The notes below the pieces were generated by a model, which was not told the origin of the DNA, ran no database searches, and saw nothing but the letters and a program-made list of their open reading frames with translations. A stretch of DNA of 64,000 nucleotides from Hericium rajendrae (taxonomy: Eukaryota; Basidiomycota; Agaricomycetes; Russulales; Hericiaceae), in contig CM065883.1 in the NCBI GenBank assembly GCA_033439255.1, positions 1,798,001 to 1,862,000 on the forward strand, in the 5' to 3' direction. The translations under genes and the position numbers were made by a program. Shown piece after piece: positions 1,367 to 61,910 of the stretch; within the stretch, counting starts at the first letter, position 1, and every line of letters begins with the position of its first letter.

Positions 1367-4277
1367 ATGGCGGCACGGAAGCTACAAAGTGCGCTATACA
1401 CCTCTAATGCCAGACTCTGGATGCTGAAAATAGGATTCTACCTCCACTGCAATCAGCGGAAATCGACCGAACACTAAAGAAGGTCGCGGAGGGCATCGAG
1501 CTCTTCGAGAGCATATACGACAAGATGCAGGCGTCGACAAACCAGACGCAGAAGGAGAAGCTCGAGACAGACCTCAAGACACAGATCAAGAAGCTCCAGC
1601 GCATGCGCGACCAGATCAAGACCTGGGTCGCGAGCAATGACATCAAGGACAAATCGGCGCTGCTGGAAAACCGGAGGCTCATTGAGATGGTGAGTATCCT
1701 TTCGACGTGTACACCTCCTTTTCTCTGGTGGATATGCTGCTGGGAGGGCTGGGATGCCACTGGACACGCGCGCATACGGTCCGCCGCGCTGCTTTGTCTC
1801 CCGTCGCGCTCATGCAATTTTATGTTGTCCTGTCCTATGTGTCTCTCTTTCTTTGCAATGGATCTGAATCGTTTCCTGTAACTAGCAAATGGAGAAATTC
1901 AAGGCGTGCGAGAAGGAGATGAAGACCAAAGCCTTCTCGAAAGAGGGTCTCATTCAGTCTGCAAAGCTCGATCCCGAACAACAGAGGAAGCTCGAGGCGG
2001 CAGGGTGGTTAGCAACCTGTGTCGAAGAGCTTACTTTGCAAGTGGAGACCGCAGAGGCGGAAATCGAATCATTACAAGTGGGTGGCCGGAAGAAGAGCAA
2101 AGTGGGGTCGTCGACAGCGGAGAGGCTAGAGGAGCTCGAGCGGTTGAACGAGCGCCGGAAGTGGCATATCAGTCGACTGGAGATCATGCTCCGATTATTA
2201 GACAACGGCACGCTGACTGCGGATCGGGTACTTGGGCTGAAGGAGGATGTGGATTATTTCGTTGAGAGCAATCCGGTGCGTGGCCCGACTTCATTTTCAC
2301 AGTTGTTCGAAGGTCGCTGAACGGTGGTTCAGAACGATGATTTCGAGGAGGACGAGGGGCTCTATGATGAACTCAATCTCGATGAAGAAGAGGAGAAGTT
2401 CGGTAGGCTCATTGTGGACGAGCAGGAGAGTGATTCGGACGAAGCGAGCGAAGGTGTGTGCTGTACAGGACTCTATTTGATCTACGGGTAACGCTCGACC
2501 CTTCGCCGCAGATCTTCCGCCACGAACGCCATCGAAAAAACACGACGAGGAGAGCGTTACAAGCAGTAGTAAACGGGATGAGAGCCCCATCATGAAGAAG
2601 GCAGGCGTGACATTGCAATTACGCAGTAAGTGGCGGCATGGTCCGTTCGTGCTTTGTCCTCACTCACCCGGCACGCCTTTATATAGAGCACTCATCGGCA
2701 GCAGATGGTACGCTCTATCCCCTTCTCATGTAGAATCCCAGATTCTAATCATGCGCCGCATTCGCCCAGCACCCAAACCGCCACCAAATCCAAATTTCGC
2801 GCAACAGCCTATGGCGAGCATACTGAAAGCAGGCCTTCCGACGCCGCAATCGCGGCCACCGGCACCGCAATTACCGCCAATACAGTATGCCACTGCTGCA
2901 GCAGCAGCCGTGACGCCATCGACAAGCCAAACGAGTAACGGCTCTGCGCCACCACCCTCGGCAACGACTTCGACGCAGGCACCATCGGCTGCGGCAACGT
3001 CGCCAAAGGTCTCGACGTTACCAGCATCAAGTACTTCAGCAACGCAAGACTCGACAAACGCAGGAACGTCCTCGCCCAGCCTGACGCACCTCTCAACAAC
3101 CAGCCCCATGCTCTCCTCCGCAATCTCAGCACAACAGGGCGACGACTCGTTCTCGTCGCCGGCACTGTCCGACGCGGTATCCGGCGCGCCAGGCGCATCG
3201 CCATCCTCGCCCGGACGTCAAGGTACGCGTCATGCCCGCGACCGCACGCTCGCTTACTCACACGTGCATCACCACATGCACGCAGTGGTGGAGGTGGAGT
3301 CGCCGCAGGTGCGCACGCAGTCGCCAGCAGCCAGCGGTGAGTCCCGCGCCGCCTCCGCCGCGTGCAGCGCGTGACGTGACGCCCCAGCAGGCGCTCGAGC
3401 AGGCGAACGGCGCGTGGCCCGCGCAGGGCCCGTCGAGCCTGCCGCAGCAGGTGCAGTCGGGCAGCGGCAGCAGCGCCGCGTCGCCGCTGCCGTCGGCGCA
3501 GGCGCAGGCGCAACAGCCGCAGTTCCCGCCGGGCGTGAAGGTGCCGGAGACGCAGCCGCCGCGCGCGCCGAGTGCGGGCGCGAGCGCGTTCCCGGGGAGC
3601 CTGTCGGATCTGGTCGCGTCGTTCGAGACGGTGAAGCAGAAGGGTGAGTTGCTGGGTCGGTCGGTTGTGCATGGTGCGGTGCTGATCTCGCTTTTTGTGC
3701 GTGCAGCTGCGCACCGGATGGCGAATCTCGATCAGGTGCACAAATACCTCGAGAGCGGGTACGCGAATCTGCCGCAGCCGCAGGACACGGAAAAGTACGT
3801 ATTCATTTGTTTGTTTTGTGCCGCGCGGGCGGGGCGTGCTGATGAGATGTGTGCTTGCAGGCCGAAGTACTACGTCCCGCGCAATCCGTTCCAGACGCCG
3901 TCGTACTACCCGCAGACGACGAACCCGATCCTGAGCAGCCCGGGCTTGTTCGCGCAGCTCGACGTCGAGACGCTCTTCTACGTGTTCTACTTCCTCCCGG
4001 GGACGTACCAGCAGTGCGTGGCCTCTTCCTTTCCTCGCGTTTGTGCGATGTGTCATTGACATGTGGGTGCAGGTACCTGGCGGCGAAGGAGCTGAAGCGG
4101 CAGTCGTGGCGCTTCCACGTGAAGTACCTGACGTGGTTCCAGCGGCACTCGGAGCCGCAGGCGATCACGGACGAGTACGAGCAGGGCGTGTACGTCTACT
4201 TCGACTGGGAGGGCTCGTGGTGCCAGCGGAAGAAGAGCGATTTCCGCTTCGAGTATCGATATCTGTCGGAGGACTGA
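1367..4277 (+). CDS. NOT3: CCR4-NOT complex subunit NOT3/NOT5
   Basis: Subunit of the CCR4-NOT deadenylase complex, acting in mRNA decay and transcription. The start MAARKLQ joins through a 68-bp intron (1389-1456) to [18 protein letters not shown], the conserved NOT3 N-terminal coiled coil, which continues with [19 protein letters not shown]. Exons I place: 1367-1388, 1457-1689, 1886-2275, 2333-2453, 2512-2625, 2687-2707, 2770-3222, then more to 4277. The middle is a Pro/Ala/Ser/Gln-rich linker. The C-terminal NOT box is clear: [45 protein letters not shown] and a final [15 protein letters not shown]. The join near 3223-3390 is uncertain: the first acceptor (3285) gives a frame that stops at 3374, so either a later acceptor at 3334 is used or a base is wrong. 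Long open frames on the opposite strand here are GC-bias shadows. Confidence 0.95.
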
Positions 4278-4589
4278 GCACATCGCCCCCCTCATGGACC
4301 GCGTTTTCCTTTTCCTTTTCCTTCTGAGCCCGCCACACGACCGCGCGTAGCAATAGTGCATTGATACATTCTTTATTCACGTTTCGGTTTTTCATCTTGT
4401 GTTTTTGATGTCGTGTGATGCACGGCATGTACGAAGTACGGCAGACAGCAGTCTGCGGACGCTCCTTCAATCCAAGCAATTTACCCATCACACTCACGCG
4501 GACGTCGGAGGGAGTGCGACAGCAAAAGCAGTGAATAGATGCGAGTAGGATATGCAGGCGGCCCTATGTAAGTACGTCTATGGGCGAAA

Positions 4590-5416
4590 TTACTCGAGCA
4601 CGACGACGCCGCCGAGCGCCTCGAACGTCGCCTTGATCTTGTCCGCGTCCTCCTTCGGCAGCGACTCCTTGAGCACCTTGGGCAACGACTCGACGAACTT
4701 CTTCGCCTGCGGACCAGCGCCGTGTCAGTAGGTAGCACGCAGAGAAAGGAAGGAAGGAAGGCGCGTACGTCGATGAGCGTGAGGTTCGGCACGAGGGCTT
4801 TGACCTCCTTGATGATCTTCGGCTTTGCGCCCGCGGCGAACGAGTCGAGGCGCACGTTGAAGATCGTCTTTTCCTTCGGCTTTTCCTGCGCGGGTTCACG
4901 GCGTCAGCGTGCATGCGCATGCGCATGCGCATGGGCGAATGGAACGCACCTCGACGGCCACCTCCTCTGCGGCGGGCGCAGCAGCAACCGCGGGCCCCGC
5001 TGCTGGCATCGCGATCTCCTGGATGTTCAGGCGCGTCTGTGTTCGATGTAAGGAAGTCTGGCGTGAGAAAGTGGTGCGGGCACGTACTTTGAGCAGCGTG
5101 ACGAGGTCCGCGGCCTGCAGGAGCGTCAGGCCGGAGATGTCGTCGACGATTTTACCCAGCTTCGGGTCTGTGGACACAGGCGGCGCGCCAGGTGTCGAAG
5201 AGGACGTCTCCGCGGCCGCGGTCGCGAGGCGTCTCCGGAGGGCATGGGCGGGTGCGGGTGAGAGGCTGCATGGAGTGGAGGGTGAGTAGTGCTGGCGCTG
5301 GCGGAAGGGTACGCACCGATGTGACCTGCACGCGGCGCGGAAGACGGAGGAAGAGCGGGTCTGTGGGGGTGGGTGAGTAGGTTAGAATGGAGGAGGGAGG
5401 AGGGACTGACGGCCAT
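4590..5416 (-). CDS. MRPL12: Mitochondrial large-subunit ribosomal protein bL12m (L7/L12)
   Basis: Mitochondrial L7/L12 stalk protein, which recruits translation GTPases to the mitoribosome. ATG at 5416 (MA), then exons 5360-5317, 5265-5088, 5036-4950, 4885-4769 and 4706-4590 give one continuous frame. The Arg/Ser/Ala-rich start ([17 protein letters not shown], later RRRLATAAA) is a typical mitochondrial import signal. The N-terminal dimerisation part reads [19 protein letters not shown]. After an Ala-rich hinge the globular domain has [38 protein letters not shown] and ends GGVVVLE. Length is about 180 residues, normal for the family. The 50-bp first intron leaves only two codons in exon 1. 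No frame defects are seen. The gene converges on NOT3, with 312 bp between the stop codons. Confidence 0.95.
4910..4933. repeat. Alternating purine-pyrimidine tract (GCATGC repeats) in an MRPL12 intron
   Basis: A run of GTGCATGC followed by GCATGCGCATGCGCATG alternates purine and pyrimidine almost perfectly. It lies inside the MRPL12 intron between 4886 and 4949. Such tracts are prone to Z-DNA or cruciform formation. No coding role. Confidence 0.6.
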
Positions 5417-7077
5417 TGTGTGTGCTGCTGGACTGCTTGCAAGTCGCGACTGCAAATTCGGCGACAAGAGCTGTTTGCTCTTTGTTTGGCGCCCGCTCTA
5501 GGCGCTCACCCGCGTTCACCCTCTAGACGCCGTACGCAGTCTTGGAATCGCATCTGTGCATTGAACGTCATGTTGAACTATCTGGATCTGTCTGGCGCGG
5601 CTTTGTCTCTGAGCCATCATACTGCTTGGTACGTCGTCGCGATTAAGATTTGCTTTTGAAGGTTCTTCAAGTTCAAGAGAAATGGGACCATCATAAGGTC
5701 TCCGCGCCGCAGGCCGAAAAAACAGTTCAGGTCGACCAAGTACCTGAGAGAACTGAGAGGTGCTAGGCAAGTAGTCTTATGCAGGTTGACCTTGAAGAAA
5801 GAACGATCGATCTCACCAAGACAAGTGGTCCTGGAAACGACTCTCCCCCTAACCAAGTCGACGATATCGGTGGAGGATGTTAGTGGTCAACTATGTTCCT
5901 TGCGACTCTCTGGCGACTCTCCTTCCTTGTGAACGCCCTTATTGCTGCTGCCATCGTTACTCGGGTCAGCGAGAGGGATTGAGTGGGCGTTAGCGCACTG
6001 AAGACTCGATGTATGACGCCCAAATAATAGGCATTTGCAACACGTACGCTCGAGTTTCTCGGCGTGGATAACGCGTCGATATCATCGATACCAATGCTTT
6101 CAACGATTTCCTTTGTGACACGTTCCCTTCCTCATCTTCGTCATCATGCATCATGACCTTGCAGGGGATTACTCGCCATGGCATTCGATTGTTGCCTTTA
6201 AGGGGTTGCTCTTTCGGAACTTCCAATCAAGTCAGCTTCGACGATTCATGTTTTCTCGTCGAGGAATGTTGAGGTAGCGAGCGCATCTCTGTTCTCCTAT
6301 AGCACCCTACAATGCAATCAGGCAGCTGCCGATGGACATCTCTCCTGGACCGTGATGCCGTTCCCGGCGATGATGATGAACATCATTTCGTACAAATTCC
6401 GGGTCCTTCCCAGGAGATGCAAGTCAGACCTGATGATCGCTTCAACACTGAACGTAAGTAATAGGTTTCATTCATCAGGTTCAATCCGCTAAACGTTGTA
6501 CTCGGGTCAACCTGTACCAGCTACGATTGACGAGTTCAATTGGTGACGGCTAGGGACAAGGTTCGTCGATAACGTCTCAGGGGCGTGGAATGCGCATTAC
6601 TGGGAGCTGATGAATTGACGAAAGTCTTTCTCAAATTAAGCAACGGCGTCGCTGCTCGACTGACTCCACGCTCCACGGGCAATTCTTATTCCTACGCGGT
6701 TACAGATAACATCGCCTCTACCGCACAACGGGGTCATCCTTCAACACGTATCGAATTCCATTAAAGTGTCAATGTCACCCTCACTGTTGGCCTTCGAGGC
6801 CCAATGGAACAACCAGGCATCTGACAGTTTGCATGATGATGGACATCCATGTCGATCCTTATGAGCAATGGGTCCCTGCCCAGAAGATGCAAGGCAACCC
6901 CATCGTTTTGATACTGGATGATTTTCCCCAGGATAAATCAACGTTATAGAGACCTCTTTTCCGCTTGACAGCGCTCTCATAATGCCTCGTTAACCAATCA
7001 GATTGCCCGCTTGAGCCTTTACGTTGACGTTGATTTGCTCAGAAACAAATCATAACATAAAAGAATTGCTGGGAAAA

Positions 7078-7096
7078 CCCACCCATTGTGGGTGGG
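7078..7096. repeat. Perfect short hairpin in the gene-poor region
   Basis: CCCACCCA, a TTG loop, then TGGGTGGG form an 8-bp perfect stem. It may be chance or the remains of a foldback repeat. No terminator role is expected in a eukaryote. Confidence 0.5.
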
Positions 7097-7330
7097 ATTG
7101 AGGTCGTCAGACATCCCAGGCAGGTCAGATCTTAGCTTGTGTCGACGGCGGGCTGGATACGATGCTGATCCATAGCATTGCAAAGAGCAACTCTACAAGG
7201 ACGTACAACACAAATTGAAAAAACTGATGGTATGATGGAATGATTTACGACCCTGCTCCGCCGCTCGACTAGCACCAGCTTCTCGCTCCTGCCGTTCAAA
7301 GATAGCTCTACGTCTCTGTTATTCCTGCTC

Positions 7331-7520
7331 TTCACCAGAAACAGAACGGAAATGACGCGGCACGTCAAGTTTCATTACGATCAAGGCTTCAAATAGGCAT
7401 CATCGACATCCCTCCCAGACCTGTTTCGCCTTTAAAAATACACCTTCACGAAAGTGAACGCAGAGAGAACGGAAATGACGCGGACCCGCCAAGCACCATT
7501 ACGGTCAAGGCCTCGAACAG
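7331..7520. repeat. Diverged direct duplication
   Basis: About 50 bp starting AGAACGGAAATGACGCGG and running through a GCACGTCAAGTTTCATTACGA-like segment to CAAGGCTTC occurs twice, near 7331-7385 and 7467-7520. The second copy has scattered substitutions (CGCCAAGCACCATTACGG, CAAGGCCTC). It looks like an old tandem duplication in non-coding DNA. Confidence 0.6.
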
Positions 7521-9736
7521 ATTTTACGTCTCCCCTTCACCTGTCTACATCGGGCACGCTATTCCGCCTCGTGCTTCCAGGACGCCATTTCTGGTAGCGT
7601 CGCCTCCAAAGTTGGATCATTTTCGCGATCTGCCCGCCCACCAAGCCGATACAAGCGACCCAGAAGCTAAACGCTTATGCGTGCGCAGATCGCACACACA
7701 AATGCTCCGCTTGTCACGCAGCGTCCGCCGGTGATTTGTGAGGGTCAAAGTGGCTCAGGCATGTGTACCTCTTATGTGCTCAGGGAAGCTGACATGGACG
7801 AAGGGCCCTGGTTGCGTCGGTAAAGCGACGGATCGGACCCGCAGCCAGTCTCGTAATGCCAGTGGACCAGCGCCGTGCACTTCGACTTGGAAGCGAGCAG
7901 ACATCTTGCTCGATGTTTGTGAAAGCTGACCTGCAAGGATGAATGATCGATGTGGGAGTGCGTCGTTACGCTGCTGAAACGGCTGCAGAAGCGACGTTCT
8001 GCTGCAATGGCCTGTGTACCAGACACGACCAGACGAGCCCACGCTATAAGGAGCACCTGTCTTTCTTACCCGAGGTCGGCACGGAGACCAATGCCTGCTC
8101 ACGCTCTGTCATTGCCATGATGGCCCTTCGCGTATGCCGTAAGGCGTTCTAAGCGTGTCCTGGAATGCCCAGCTTATGACGTTCTTCGCTGTTCTTCTGC
8201 CGCACGATTGCCGCTTGATGTTATGGCACGTACCTAGAACGGCCATTCGTTTATAATATCATCGGGGAAGACCATTGCGCTCTGTTAATATGGGCCCTTC
8301 TTCAGTTGAGAACCTCCGACCATCGAGCCCGCCGAGACATAGAAGGTGCAGATCAATGGGAGCCCGTGATGTGGGGCAGCTATCGGCGCTACGCACAGAT
8401 GACGGGGTGTCGAATTCCGAAATGGTGGATCGTATAATTTTTGGGAAGCTCGTTTCTGCAATCTATGGCGCGTGGCCGTCTGGGTTCCGGATCCAGGGAA
8501 GCTTCCTCTGTGTCTGATGGTCTGGACGCGATGCTTTAAGCATCTCCCTTTGTAGATGCCTGAACGGGTAGACGCTCTGAGACGCTCTCACAACGCACTC
8601 TATAATGGTTTTGAACACTCGCTTGTATTTGGCCTGTATGAGATATACGATACATCATAAAGGGAGCGACATACCGCTCACAAGGCCTCAAAGCAGATGA
8701 TCTCATTGGGAATAAGAGCCGTTTAGCCGTTCCCCACTCTCCCTGGTATTTGGAATTTGCTTTGTGGCGAATATTTCTCTCTGCAACTTTGGATCTCGAT
8801 GCCGATCGTTGGTGAGTTCATTTTTCTCTGTCATAATTTCGGTGAAGTCATGTTATTATCGGAAGTCAGTGGGCGCCCCGAGTGCGACCGACTGGGCGAC
8901 CGTGCGGCCATCAGCCCTGCCTAAGACGCGCAAAGGTCGCACGGCGTGTCTCACCATCTCCGACCTTCATCTCGCGATGGCAGATTCCCTATAGGGACCC
9001 ATTCATGCACCAGCAGCTACCGCGGAAATTTGCTGGTCCCAGTCATGGAGTGAACTGAATAGACAAGTCTTGGAGGTCGAAAATTACGCGGTGAATCCCG
9101 TAGCCCGGTGGCGTTCGTGGCGTTTCCGGTGTGCGAAAAGTGTGCCCCACAACCGAGGAAGGAATCGGTCGAGCCTCCCAAACCCTTTTTTCCGACCTTG
9201 CCAAACAGAGACCTCCCTTTACTGCCCTCTACGACCCTTTTACAGAAGCGCTCCAACTTCGCATGAGAAGGCGATGTAAGCAAATGCTTCTTCCCATGGC
9301 AACCGCCTGTAGTGGATGTCCTTATCGGCGCGGACACTGCAGAGGTGTCTCATTCGCGCTGGCATGGACGCCTGTGTGAGTCTGTAGGCGACGGGGAATT
9401 CCAGGTCAGAAATCTCGGCTTAAAAAAGTGTTATAGGGAACCCATGGCTTCTTGATGGGCCACCGCGTGCCGTTTATGTACGGGAAAGAAGGGGAATTTC
9501 TGTCAAGCGGAAGGGCGCGCACGCGATGTCGACTTTTTCGGTGCTACGAAAGGGAACCCCGTGCCTAGTCGATCTCCAATTCCCGTTGACCCGAGCCAAG
9601 GGCCGGGTTGCGCCCAAAATTTCGTCCATAATATGGGCTGGAGAGCATCCCTTCAAGAGCCGCGTTGGGGTTCCTGCTCGTCCCTTCCCTCCGTCTCATA
9701 CCGCGTAGACCCCACCCCGTGCGTCATTCGTTCACC

Positions 9737-56200: not shown

Positions 56201-59200
56201 AGACTCGCTCCAGACGTCGTCAGCCTGGCTGAGACTGCTTTCAGGTCGCGACTTGGAATTGTGGTCGCGTCTCGTTTTGACCATCGTGATCCGCTCGTAC
56301 AAGCTTGTTGAGATCCTCGTCGGGTAAACTGTCGAGCGCAGGATCCAGCCCGAGACGCGCGAGTGCTGCTTCGCGTTTCGCGTACGTCCAGTCGACATCG
56401 GCCATCTCGGCAGACGAGGCAGTGGGCGAATGCGGCCGGGTTCCTTCACCTCCCCCTTCCAAGTCAGCTGCAGAGATGCTTGTCTGCAGACTTGATTTCA
56501 GCGTTGCACGGTCACGCTGCTTTCGCACTTCTTCGGGGTTGTTAAACCTAAAGACATGGTGCTCGCCTAAACGTTGCCGGGGTGAGAACATGCTGCGCTG
56601 AGGGCCGGAAATTCTGCCTACTCACCAAGAATGATCCGGAAACCAGACCGCAGTTTGTACGTCTAGAAGCAGAACATCAGCAGCATGTTTCCCATCGCCA
56701 TCGCACAACGTACCTGTCCGGGCGAAATTTGTTTGCCGTTCAAGAACTGCAGGCGAAATCAGAAGTCGACTTCCACACGGACGAGCCCAGTCGGAAACTC
56801 ACGGTGACACCATCCTGCATGGCATGCAACGTCACCTTCCCCTCCGTATTCTCAAAGTAGCAGTGCTCTTCCAGGATATTATCACCACTGAGCCTGATCT
56901 GGATCGGTTTATGCTATCCATCCGGCCGACCTGCAACCTGTTATCAAAATTGTTTCCCAGGCACAAGGTGAAGGGGCCCCTTACAGTTGTGCGTCCGGTT
57001 CTCAGCTGATATATGAGGCACTCGCTCATGAGAGGATCTGACAGAATGCGAGGTCAGATTCTCATTCAGGTGTCATATAGTTGACAACGTAAGTCACCTT
57101 CATTCTGGATTGAACGGAAGTCGGGTCACAGTTATTCCGACTGACAACATTGAGGATCAATGTTACTTACCAAATTGACCAAGTGGGGCATCTGCCGTAC
57201 ACTTGTCAGTACAGCTGCACTCAATGCGAATCCCCAAAGAAACGCACCTTCTTCGGGGTATGCACGCCGACATTATTCTTCTCGACTGTGATACCGAGCT
57301 CCTCAAGCGCCTTCTCGCGCTCTTTTGCACCTCCTGCGTGCGCTGGAGCTTCTCCTCCCATGTCTCGTTCAGGCTCTCCATCAGCTTCTCGCTCGTCTGA
57401 AGCTGCTCCTGCAGCTCTGCTTTCGTGACCGTCTTGATCGTGCCGTCTTTTGCTTGGTACGTGACCTTCTGCTTCTCTGGTGGGATCTTAGGATCAAAGA
57501 CCTCTTCACCATTGCTACCTCCTGAGACACGGGCTGCAAGGACCCGAGAACATCATCGATCAGTATCCCAGCATACATGGAAAAACGAGACTGGGATGAA
57601 GCAAGACGCGCACCCCTCAGCATCTCGAGCTCCTCCTTCAGCTCTCTCACTAGTTTCGCGTTCGGATCCTCATTGACCACCGCCTTGTTCTTGATCTTCT
57701 TCGCTTGATCGGCGTACCGCAGTGTACTCAGCGTTTCTTCGTAGTCTGCCGGAGAGATTGCAGCAATCATGGCGGTCTTCGAATTACCACCGAGCGAGTC
57801 TTTCAGCAGCCAGGTCAAAACCTGCAGCCCTGGTGAGCAGGAGGCATGGCTGCAACAACAAAAAACGCACAGAATCACGATATGGCACGAACTCCTCCGC
57901 TTTCTTCTTCCCGCCCTTCTTAGGTGCCTCGACGCTGGATGCGGCAGCGAGCGCCGAGATGACCTTCCCGAGTGTCGTGAGCGACTTGTTGATGTTCGCA
58001 CCTTCCTTCAGCCGCTGGCCTGTCGCGCCCGTTGAATTGGCTCTCTCCGAGCCGGCCAAGTCGACCAGGCTGATTCGCGAGACCTTCTCTGTGTCGAGGT
58101 TCGTGTCATTGTCGTGCCGCTTCATCGTTAGGATCAGGGTGAACACCGCATGCGAACGCGAGGATCTGTTCCGATTTGATCTGAGCATGCCATCGTAGAG
58201 TGTGCGGCGCACGTACGTTTCGTTCATGTTGGTCGCGGCGACCGTACGCGCCTTGTTACCTTCGTCCATGAGCGTCATCATCTCGTCGTAGCCGTTCACA
58301 ACCAGCTTCGAGAGGTCCTCAACGTACGGCCCGAGACTTGGGTGTTCGCGCACGCGCAGGTTGCCTGTGTTCTTCGGATTGAGCAGGTCGCGGACCTTCT
58401 CGTTGTATATCTGCACGTGCACGTGCTCATCAGCGCAAATCGGGAGCGGGCTCGTTCGGGACGCACCTCTATGTAAGGACACTTCTACTGTGAAACTGAG
58501 GTTGGGGTCTGCGGCTTTCTTCGATTCGACGCGTACGAATAGCTCGGAACACGTCTGCGGGATGATACCCTTGTCGGGTCCGTCTGGACGCGGTGCGGCG
58601 CGTCAGCGTAGGGCTGCGGACATGTGATAGACACTCACATCCCATCATACTGTGATATACATGCATGTTAGCTCCATTAAACGAGTAGAAAGCGCGTGAA
58701 CATGCCTGTATGACTTTCCCGATCCTGGGGGCCACAACGCGCTTTAGTACGGATTCACATGCAGGGACCTGCGCAACGCACCAGTCTGCCCATCTGCGTT
58801 ACACGCGGTATGCCATCAGATTAAAACATTCTGGAAAAAGAGCACACTCACAGGCCAAGATACACGCATTAAACCCCGAGAAACCGTGGTCGAGCAGCTC
58901 CTTGCCCAGATCATCGAATAAAGTTTGTTGGGAGCAGTAGCCGGGCTCGTCGCGGGGGCCGGCGGACCAGTAACTCTTGTCGAAGCTGAAGGCCATGGTC
59001 TTGCGCTCAGTTGCGCGTGCCTTCTCCTGCGAGGAGCCGGCCTCCGGCGGGTCGAGGAAGGTCGAGTTGCCCTGCATACGGATGAGCGGCTTTGCGCCGC
59101 GCGCGAGCTCTGTAGTGCAGACAGATATGAGCGCATCGTTTTGGATAGAAGCGAGAATGAAGATGTACCGCGCGAGTTGAGCGGTCGACATCGCACGACG

Positions 59201-59232
59201 ACTTTGATGTTTCCATCGCCGTGTTCGGCCAT
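53234..59232 (-). CDS. Kinesin-3 motor, UNC-104/KIF1A type
   Basis: Plus-end microtubule motor for early endosomes and vesicles. ATG at 59232 ([20 protein letters not shown]). Motor domain: [17 protein letters not shown]-loop YGQTGSGKSY on tiny exons, [98 protein letters not shown], then the neck [19 protein letters not shown]. Next a coiled segment, an FHA domain ([38 protein letters not shown]), a KIF1B-type region ([20 protein letters not shown]), a DUF3694 segment ([18 protein letters not shown]), and a C-terminal PH domain ([51 protein letters not shown]). Ends KLDPTRTLP at 53234. Frame changes are needed at 58475-58476 (VSYIE), 57323-57326 (VQKEREKAL), 56908-56910 (IKPIQI) and 54736-54737 (VAWLQI). 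About 1,550 residues, normal for the family. Confidence 0.95.
58639..58792 (-). other. Kinesin P-loop encoded on three micro-exons with one GC-AG intron
   Basis: Exons of 12 nt (58792-58781), 19 nt (58723-58705) and 11 nt (58649-58639) together encode YGQTGSGKSYSMMG. The donor after the 19-nt exon reads CAG|GCATGT, so that intron is GC-AG. Only this splicing keeps the conserved motif in frame. Confidence 0.75.
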
Positions 59233-59952
59233 AATTTACGTCCGTCTTGTCCTGTTCCTGTCGCTCTAGCTTCGTCAGACCAATTCAGGTATCAGATGTG
59301 CAGCACAATGGACAGAAGATGAGGAAAAGAAGTGAGAAATGTCGTGTCCGGCGCGAGCAGAGAGTGGCAGTCGAGAACAAGATTGCAGTCGCGGGCATCA
59401 AGCGCTTAGCGGGCGTGGTTGCTGCAGTGCGACTGCTGTTGCCTTTTTGGGCGCTCGCTTCGTACGAAACGGCAACAAAATTGTTCGGAGTCAATTCTCT
59501 GCACAACTCTTTGGTAGAGCCAGAAGGCCGACAAGATCATGAAAATCGGTTATAGCTACCGGAGTGTATGTGTGAGTCCCAGACAGAATATTTCAGCTGT
59601 ATCTGACAATATTCCTAGAATTCTTTGAGGAGAAACACGTGCTCCCAGTCAAGTCGATATGTCGAAATCAAAGTTGGTAAAGACAGCGCTGCAGCTTGGC
59701 TCAAGCTTGGCTGCACTGTTCATGAAATACCAGATTGTATTATCAATGATGACTATCCCCAGCCTAAGCCCGTGGAACTGTGCTGATGAGCGGTGGACAG
59801 TATTTCGTTATTCCTCATTCTTTATTCCCAGACGTAAGGCCTAATCACCGAGCGGATCGAGATCAAAAACACCATCGTACACAGAAATGGGTAACCAATT
59901 CGACATAATAGAACGTATTTGCAGACCAAATAATCTGGCAGTTGGAGCGCTT
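59233..59952. other. Kinesin upstream flank
   Basis: Promoter region of the minus-strand kinesin gene. No gene recognised. Confidence 0.45.
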
Positions 59953-60167
59953 CCCCCAGGTCGTCTTTTTTTTTTTTTTTTTTTTTTTTTTTGAATCCAT
60001 ATTGCTATTCGACGCTGAGGCGTCATGCAGCATTACATCCGTGTGGCCCCCAAAAACTAAGCTACCGTCCGTCCGTAAACGTTGAGTGGCCCAGATGTTG
60101 AGGGTCGTAAATCTTGTTGTAAGCTGTCGAGGTCTTGATCTGCGTCACATAAGCCCCCAGGTCGTCT
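59953..60167 (-). pseudogene. 5'-truncated retrocopy of a cellular mRNA with poly(A) and 14-bp target-site duplication
   Basis: CCCCCAGGTCGTCT occurs at 59953-59966 and exactly again at 60154-60167, flanking about 187 bp. Read on the minus strand, the insert opens with 29 codons of unbroken frame (YVTQIKTSTAYNKIYDPQHL then GHSTFTDGR) with GC-biased third positions like local genes. A TAG (60064-60062), about 69 nt resembling a 3' UTR and an uninterrupted run of about 27 A (59992-59966) follow. Truncation at the 5' end, a 3' poly(A) and a perfect target-site duplication are the three marks of target-primed reverse transcription. The source protein is not recognised. It could instead be the 3' end of a LINE, but the peptide does not look like reverse transcriptase or RNase H. 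Perfect flanks and a pure A tract imply a recent event. Confidence 0.8.
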
Positions 60168-61096
60168 AGATCATTTGAGCTGCAAACATGTTCTATTGAC
60201 ATGGAGATTATATGACAGGTTCGCTTCGTGAAATGAGCAGGGTGAAGTCGGCCATATTAATGTCAACTTCATTCTGCATTCATCATTACTTTCGCCCTTC
60301 GTTCGCAGTCTGTTCTAAGTTTTACAGCCTGCATGCTGGTATTTTGCTGCAAGTAGTTCTTGAGTTTATTGGTCCTCTCACTCGAGGATGCAGTACGCAC
60401 CGTTCGCGCCGATGGTGCGTTTTGCTCCCTACACATCATATCCGGTCATATCACCCTTGTCGGTGACTGCATCCTCGTGCTTGGTTCGTTCTGATAATTG
60501 CCTCGTTAATTGCTGACGGTATCACACATCTATCTCAATCTATGATGCAGCCTTGCAGCGGGCCATAGTCTCTTGTGCTAGTGCGGCACCGCGCTCCACC
60601 ACGACAGACATGCTTGTCCCCTACTGTACCTCTCAGATCTCAGTCAAGGTAGGCGCAGGCTTTGAATGTTATCACGTTCGCGCCTTTGCCTGTGGGAGAC
60701 CTCAATTTGGAGGGCGAATGCCGATCCTTTCTTTTGCTTGCCTACCTCTGGCCTCCTATCGGACATAGCAATTACCTGATCTTTAATGTCACTTCAAGTA
60801 TGTTCGCCTGCTCGGCCCTTCGTCTTCTCCATCAAGCTGAAGACCCATGCTGAGGCGGAAAGATAGATAGTCTGACGGTTTCTGTGCCTGCTTGTCGAAG
60901 AAGAAGCGAGGAACCAGTTACTTCCGCGTGAGCATCCGGCTGTCGTTCGTATGAGGTCAACAACAGAGAATAGAGTAGATTATGCTATGAATACACGATA
61001 CTTTTGCTACAAGCAGATCCAAGCGAATCAATAAGTCAGCTTGCGGGTATACTGCAAACACGACAACGGAACATCTCCATTCGAACCTTGCCACGA
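60168..61096. other. Intergenic, retrocopy to IMP3 3' end
   Basis: No gene recognised. Several short frames on the plus strand show no known domain. Confidence 0.4.
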
Positions 61097-61910
61097 TCAC
61101 AGAAGATCGAAATCGTCGAGCTGTAACCAACGCGTCAATATGATGGACAGAAGACGCATGGAGATAGTGCACCTCGTCGTTGTATCTCATGACCGTTCTC
61201 TTCAGCTTCGATGTATCGACCCACGTAACGAAGTCTTCCATATTCCTGCACAGCATGTTAATTGATGTCCGAGGAATGTACGAAAGAAGCGGCTTACCGA
61301 TTCACGAGAAACGCAGGATCTGTGACAGTATCGGGTCCAACGCGAACATGACCTTGTTCGATGAATTTCACTGCCTAAAAACCGCATGAGGACTGCGTCG
61401 GGTGGGCAACGCTGATGCACTCACTGCGCTGACGGTCTCGGCCATCTTGGAAGTGACCATGACGACGGCAAGCCGTCTGCGACAGAAGGCAGCCACGGTG
61501 AGCTTGTTCTCGACGTCGCTCATCTTTGCCTGAGAGTTGAGAACGCCCATGTCATAGAGTTTGGACAAAATTTGTCCTTCCATGCGCGATCGGAATGGGT
61601 CTTGGGCGGGGAGGACGCTGAGACGGTGGGCGAGAGATCTTAGGGACCCACAGAGCTTGTTGTACCTGCGACGACCATATATATGGCGGACCAGATACGA
61701 AAATAGAGAACGAACTTTGTATAGTCTTCGCGGTCCTGGATGTGATACCGACGCATGACTTTAATTTCGCGCAAATTGGCATCTTGCTTCCACTGTGCGG
61801 GCGGTTGAGTGCGCTGGGTGTGGAGGTGCAAGACAATAGGAGATACGTACGTTAAGAAAGTCGACCTTTTTGAGGAGTTTCTGCTCGTGATGCTTGAGCT
61901 GGCGAACCAT
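61097..61910 (-). CDS. IMP3: U3 snoRNP protein IMP3
   Basis: Component of the small-subunit processome with an S4-like RNA-binding fold; it helps pair U3 snoRNA with pre-18S rRNA. ATG at 61910 gives MVRQLKHHEQKLLKKVDFLN. Introns then join WKQDANLREIKVMRRYHIQD, REDYTKYNKLCGSLRSLAHR, LSVLPAQDPFRSRMEGQILS, KLYDMGVLNSQAKMSDVENK, LTVAAFCRRRLAVVMVTSKM, VKFIEQGHVRVGPDTVTDPA, FLVNR, NMEDFVTWVDTSKLKRTVMR and YNDELDDFDLL. About 185 residues, normal. An in-frame upstream extension reaching 62108 is acidic and Gly-rich and is probably not translated, since the family starts at MVRQLK. No frame defect. Start lies 377 bp from the divergent plus-strand gene. Confidence 0.95.

Follow-up and report, generated by a model that had tools for sequence, protein, structure and literature searches.

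An element built like the one reported here, LINE-Tad-like-RtPc5, has been described in Paracoccidioides (PMC4427930). As presented there, RtPc5 and the present LINE are alike in having two ORFs in different frames and a poly(A) tail, with an ORF1 without known similarity and an ORF2 that carries an endonuclease, a reverse transcriptase (RT) and an RNase H. Compared by description, RtPc5 measures 5905 bp (PMC4427930) against 7206 bp for L050, a copy that includes a nested stretch of about 429 bp. Truncated LINE insertions have been caught arising in another mushroom, Marasmius oreades; its MarorLINE-6 (Inkcap) and MarorLINE-7 (Tad1) are basidiomycete LINEs which, like the present family, leave insertions that extend to varying lengths on the 5' side, but the Marasmius oreades insertions are new mutations, whereas ours are read from one assembly (PMC9674265). 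The stringent-type elements ZfL2-1 and ZfL2-2 resemble the present LINE in that their RNA carries a 3' stem-loop (PMC4176376); ours differs in being followed by poly(A), and the function we ascribe to it is putative. Elements are on record in other basidiomycetes as well: Tad and Deceiver in Laccaria bicolor (PMC3411680), and Tad1 in Ganoderma (PMC8955403).

The locus lies in a 64-kb window (the whole stretch of DNA that was analysed) and consists of 187 bases between perfect 14-bp repeats, with a pure T run at the left end. The preliminary description had reported the perfect duplication, the T run and a 29-codon minus-strand frame followed by a stop, and all of these are present at the positions below.

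59953..59966, no strand: target-site duplication, left copy (3' side of the element)
59967..59992, minus strand: poly(A) tail of the element (26 T on the plus strand; 27 with the duplication's shared last T)
59993..60153, minus strand: LINE 3' UTR, 161 bp, 5'-truncated (element sense minus)
60003..60032, minus strand: 3'-terminal stem-loop of the LINE RNA, from covariation in 17 distinct rows (inner helix 60011-60024; outer helix TGCT/AGCA; 10 bases short of the poly(A))
60065..60151, minus strand: 29-codon open frame of the preliminary description, stop at 60062-60064, taken as a chance frame within the 3' UTR
60154..60167, no strand: target-site duplication, right copy (5' side of the element)

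In the 64-kb window the repeat CCCCCAGGTCGTCT has exactly two occurrences, starting at 59953 and 60154, and the sole T run of 15 or more is the one at 59966-59992, 27 long. Because the last base of the left repeat is also the first T of the run, the tail is 26-27 long. By simple arithmetic, two fixed junctions would agree perfectly over 14 bp by chance with a probability of about 4e-9. The insert has a minus-strand frame on either side, one holding a ribosomal S4 N-terminal domain (61371-61760) and the other a kinesin motor (57787-58602). The insert is about 720 bp before the presumed start of the kinesin, which we place near 59232 on the basis of a motif; the frame at that start had no Pfam match.

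We conclude that the insert is almost certainly a 'dead on arrival' copy, severely truncated at its 5' end, of a resident non-LTR retrotransposon (LINE) of the APE type with a Tad-like layout. What we observed for this reading is membership in a dispersed family, a common 3' end, differing 5' ends, the duplications, the coding capacity of the longer copies and one empty site of a sister insertion. By analogy with the biochemistry of known LINEs, a LINE RNA ending in the stem-loop and poly(A) would have been brought to a nicked chromosomal site by the ORF2 protein; reverse transcription would have started at the poly(A) and copied 161 bases of 3' UTR before halting, and the 14-bp duplication would have formed as the staggered nick was repaired.

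The genome searched was one assembly of 46.8 Mb in 19 contigs. A DNA search with the insert returned at least 12 rows from at least 11 distinct places, including the window, at 72-100% identity. When we searched the genome with a 35-base pattern from the 3' end, allowing up to three mismatches, it was found at 20 places (reversed control, 0), and at every one of the 20 a tail of poly(A) or A-rich sequence came after it; the 3' part of 59993..60153 is common to the window and 19 other places. Since three of these copies (L057, L058 and L059) lie inside one larger repeat that is 97.4-99.9% identical over 3-4 kb, the number of independent insertions is at most 18. Target-site duplications of 11-15 bp flank ten of them, nine found by script and one (L010, 11 bp) read by eye. 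Exact matches of 10-11 bases may arise by chance in long flanks, and 10-bp candidates at L057 and L058 were left out, being chance-like and located in copies of the L059 insertion. For the other eight of the 18 (L049, L051, L053, L054, L060, L062, L063 and L064) the search found no duplication; at L062 to L064 it covered only about 400 bp of upstream sequence.

The ten insertions with a duplication have ten distinct 5' ends; measured back from the end of the pattern, the nearest lies at about 43 bp and the farthest at about 7.2 kb. A common 3' end combined with ten differing 5' ends indicates 5' truncation of one long RNA and not a SINE. The preliminary description had proposed that a SINE family, recognizable as one unit at many loci with a common 5' end, would speak against its own reading of the insert as a processed retrocopy; what we found instead is many loci with a common 3' end and differing 5' ends, a pattern that excludes a retrocopy and indicates truncated LINE copies. 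A SINE having the same 3' tail as the LINE, and moved by it, would also be short and poly(A)-tailed with a LINE 3' end, and LINE/SINE pairs have been reported for fungal Tad1-type LINEs (PMC4176376, PMC5135761, PMC3747384). Within the window copy's own subgroup, however, four of the five members have differing 5' ends set by duplications, while the fifth (L051) continues into ORF2 remains. No tRNA was found in the window or in nine loci (ARAGORN, bacterial code), nor any Rfam match up to E 1 in 59401-60700, although both results add little. We rejected a SINE because the ten 5' ends differ where a common one would be expected, and we give it very little probability.

Two of the copies, L062 and L064, have mainly the last 45-60 bp in common with the LINE. 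They may be cases of extreme truncation or tail-sharing elements; a tRNA scan of the two found none.

Longer copies reveal what lies upstream of the shared 3' end. In these, an RNase H-like frame is found upstream of the same 3' UTR, and L050 is an apparently full-length copy. Its ORF1 frame (1811-3895) encodes 695 aa with one CCHC motif and had no Pfam match. The ORF2 frame (3877-6429) holds an endonuclease, Exo_endo_phos_2 (PF14529, 7e-9, residues 121-254), N-terminal to a reverse transcriptase, RVT_1 (PF00078, 1.4e-15, residues 539-794); the RT matched nine PDB sequences, R2 and LINE-1 ORF2 among them. An RNase H (PF00075, 1.5e-8, 35.3 bits, above the Pfam cut-off) follows at 6750-8135, parted from ORF2 by the nested stretch of about 429 bp (6323-6751), and after it comes a C-terminal cysteine-histidine motif. 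Beside the copy on C8, a 302-aa frame has an RNase H match of 25.6 bits, just below the Pfam cut-off of 25.8; the decayed ORF2 remains at L051 include a 122-aa remnant for which Pfam gave no match. The window copy, being truncated, lacks the RT domain. Across the family we find a reverse transcriptase, an N-terminal apurinic-like endonuclease, poly(A), variable duplications and 5' truncation, and an ORF1 followed by an ORF2 with endonuclease, RT and RNase H is the layout of Tad1. Other RNase H-bearing clades have the same ORF1/ORF2 layout. We call the family Tad-like by layout, not by RT phylogeny, and claim no membership in the Tad1 clade.

The nested stretch of about 429 bp is itself repeated, being roughly 98-99.8% identical at several places (L050, L054, L057 and L061; about 99% for the L050 stretch against those elsewhere), and in L054 it bounds both ends of a longer LTR-type element. 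It is probably an LTR with recent activity.

An empty site exists for one sister insertion. The element of L050 (G000 C7) spans 1681-8886, or 7206 bp, between the two copies of a 13-bp duplication, ATAGCCCCAGGTC. The sequence to either side of it aligns with an LTR-type repeat in L049 (C8, minus strand, 1001 and 7679) that is without the LINE and has ATAGCCCCAGGTC once per repeat; 307 of 313 bases are identical on one flank and 85-86 of 90 on the other. The L049 LTR sequence is an empty site for the apparently full-length sister insertion L050.

The preliminary description had seen in the insert a cellular mRNA copied by the machinery of a LINE, and the poly(A), the perfect 14-bp duplication and the short open frame with its stop would all suit such a copy. 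The minus-strand frame of 29 residues ends GHSTFTDGR, followed by TAG. In the other copies its end is not kept: read in the register of GHSTF, the frame extends 8 to 31 residues beyond this anchor, differing by copy, and indels of 1 and 4 bases, which are not multiples of three, cross it. (The anchor is present in 16 of the 20 rows compared and missing in L052, L056, L062 and L064.) Similar letters can be read in other copies because the DNA around GHSTF is conserved. The tail peptide had been suggested as a probe for an intron-bearing parent gene; a search with 30 residues reached three places in the genome, namely the window and two repeat copies, L009 (E 1.9e-5) and L051 (E 0.10), and neither DNA nor peptide searches of the organism's own genome yielded a parent gene, only copies of the repeat. 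To judge from these sequences, the 29-codon frame is best taken as a chance frame in the 3' UTR and not as the tail of a gene. We rejected a cellular-mRNA retrocopy because the insert belongs to a repeat family, that family is continuous upstream with the ORF2 frames of a LINE, the end of the frame is not maintained and no parent was found; it strikes us as highly improbable. Thus, LINE-type reverse transcription, the poly(A) and the duplication stand as first described, while the template was the 3' end of a LINE and not a cellular mRNA. The insert is an ordinary truncated LINE copy, and such events are already known. Its reassignment removes a false example of mRNA retrocopying in a basidiomycete-type genome and illustrates that a truncated LINE tail can mimic one.

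The 3' end of the family contains a stem-loop. We measured covariation in 18 rows (17 distinct), omitting L057 and L058 as the same as L059; related copies in this set are not independent. In the five-pair helix, 97.6% of cells are paired and 13 cells are changed on both sides, and the covariation score is 0.449; each of these measures was reached by 0 of 500 shuffles, and in a slide control the best slid version scored 0.224. Two further measures showed no excess, the number of pairs with a both-sides change being reached by 310 of 500 shuffles and that of further pair types by 500 of 500, so that the evidence for the stem-loop comes from the first three measures together with the slide control. 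RNAalifold added an outer helix, giving 10 pairs, four of them with both-sides changes. Folded alone, the window copy was not better than shuffles (z -1.15; 27 of 200 equal or better).

Stringent LINEs bind the 3' loop through ORF2, while L1 needs poly(A) only and makes processed pseudogenes (PMC4176376), and stem-loops have been mentioned in print for fungal LINE/SINE pairs of the Tad1 type (PMC5135761). By comparison with these known LINEs, recognition by ORF2 of its own RNA is a putative role for the stem-loop. A tentative proposal, which we consider possible though rather unlikely, is that ORF2 of this family requires the covarying 3' stem-loop even though the RNA also has a poly(A) tail. 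If true, the LINE would be of the stringent type, copying its own RNA and producing few retrocopies of host mRNA or none; provided that retrocopies really are rare in compact fungal genomes, this could be part of the reason why they are seldom noted there. The family, which has a covarying hairpin and an empty site that survives in an LTR, is well suited to the question of whether fungal poly(A) LINEs recognise structure or poly(A) alone.

A second hairpin is predicted in the upstream part of the 3' UTR (L050, L054, L009 and others). With both-sides changes in 2 of 17 predicted pairs and a covariation term of -0.2 among eight rows, it is weakly supported.

The nearest relatives of the window copy are L009 (86.7%, 137/158) and L012 (93.7%, 89/95); we found no close parent. 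In a tree of 20 rows under a preset HKY+G model, in which L062 and L064 are poorly aligned and have branches above 1, the window copy groups with L009, L010, L012 and L051 (support 98), and its private branch measures 0.084 substitutions per site. Had all 0.084 accumulated after insertion, the chance of zero changes in the 28 duplication and 27 tail bases would be about 0.01, or 0.095 for the duplications alone. That duplication and tail are both without a change suggests an insertion younger than this branch, an argument weakened by the fact that slippage can renew poly(A). A recent insertion in the window is plausible.

Among the matches listed, none of the family's three strongest for endonuclease and RT is intact: the nested stretch divides the C7 copy (L050), one stop lies within the C8 match, and the C2 match breaks off at residue 706 and resumes about 12 kb on. 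No uninterrupted family copy or competent source was seen among these matches; because the searches list best candidates, this does not prove that one is absent. More distant LINEs (29-38% identical) have frames of more than 1000 residues without stops.

Some copies of the LINE have an excess of C-to-T or G-to-A changes at CpG, as expected from CpG methylation and deamination or from a RIP-like process. Using L009, L050 and L061 as stand-ins for the ancestors of L051, L053 and L057, respectively, we counted such changes at 11 of 28, 11 of 26 and 16 of 28 CpG sites, compared with 1 of 29, 2 of 40 and 3 of 26 CpA sites; L057 also has them at 8 of 20 CpC sites. Between the window copy and L009 there are 21 changes, of which five are C-to-T or G-to-A and seven are the reverse.
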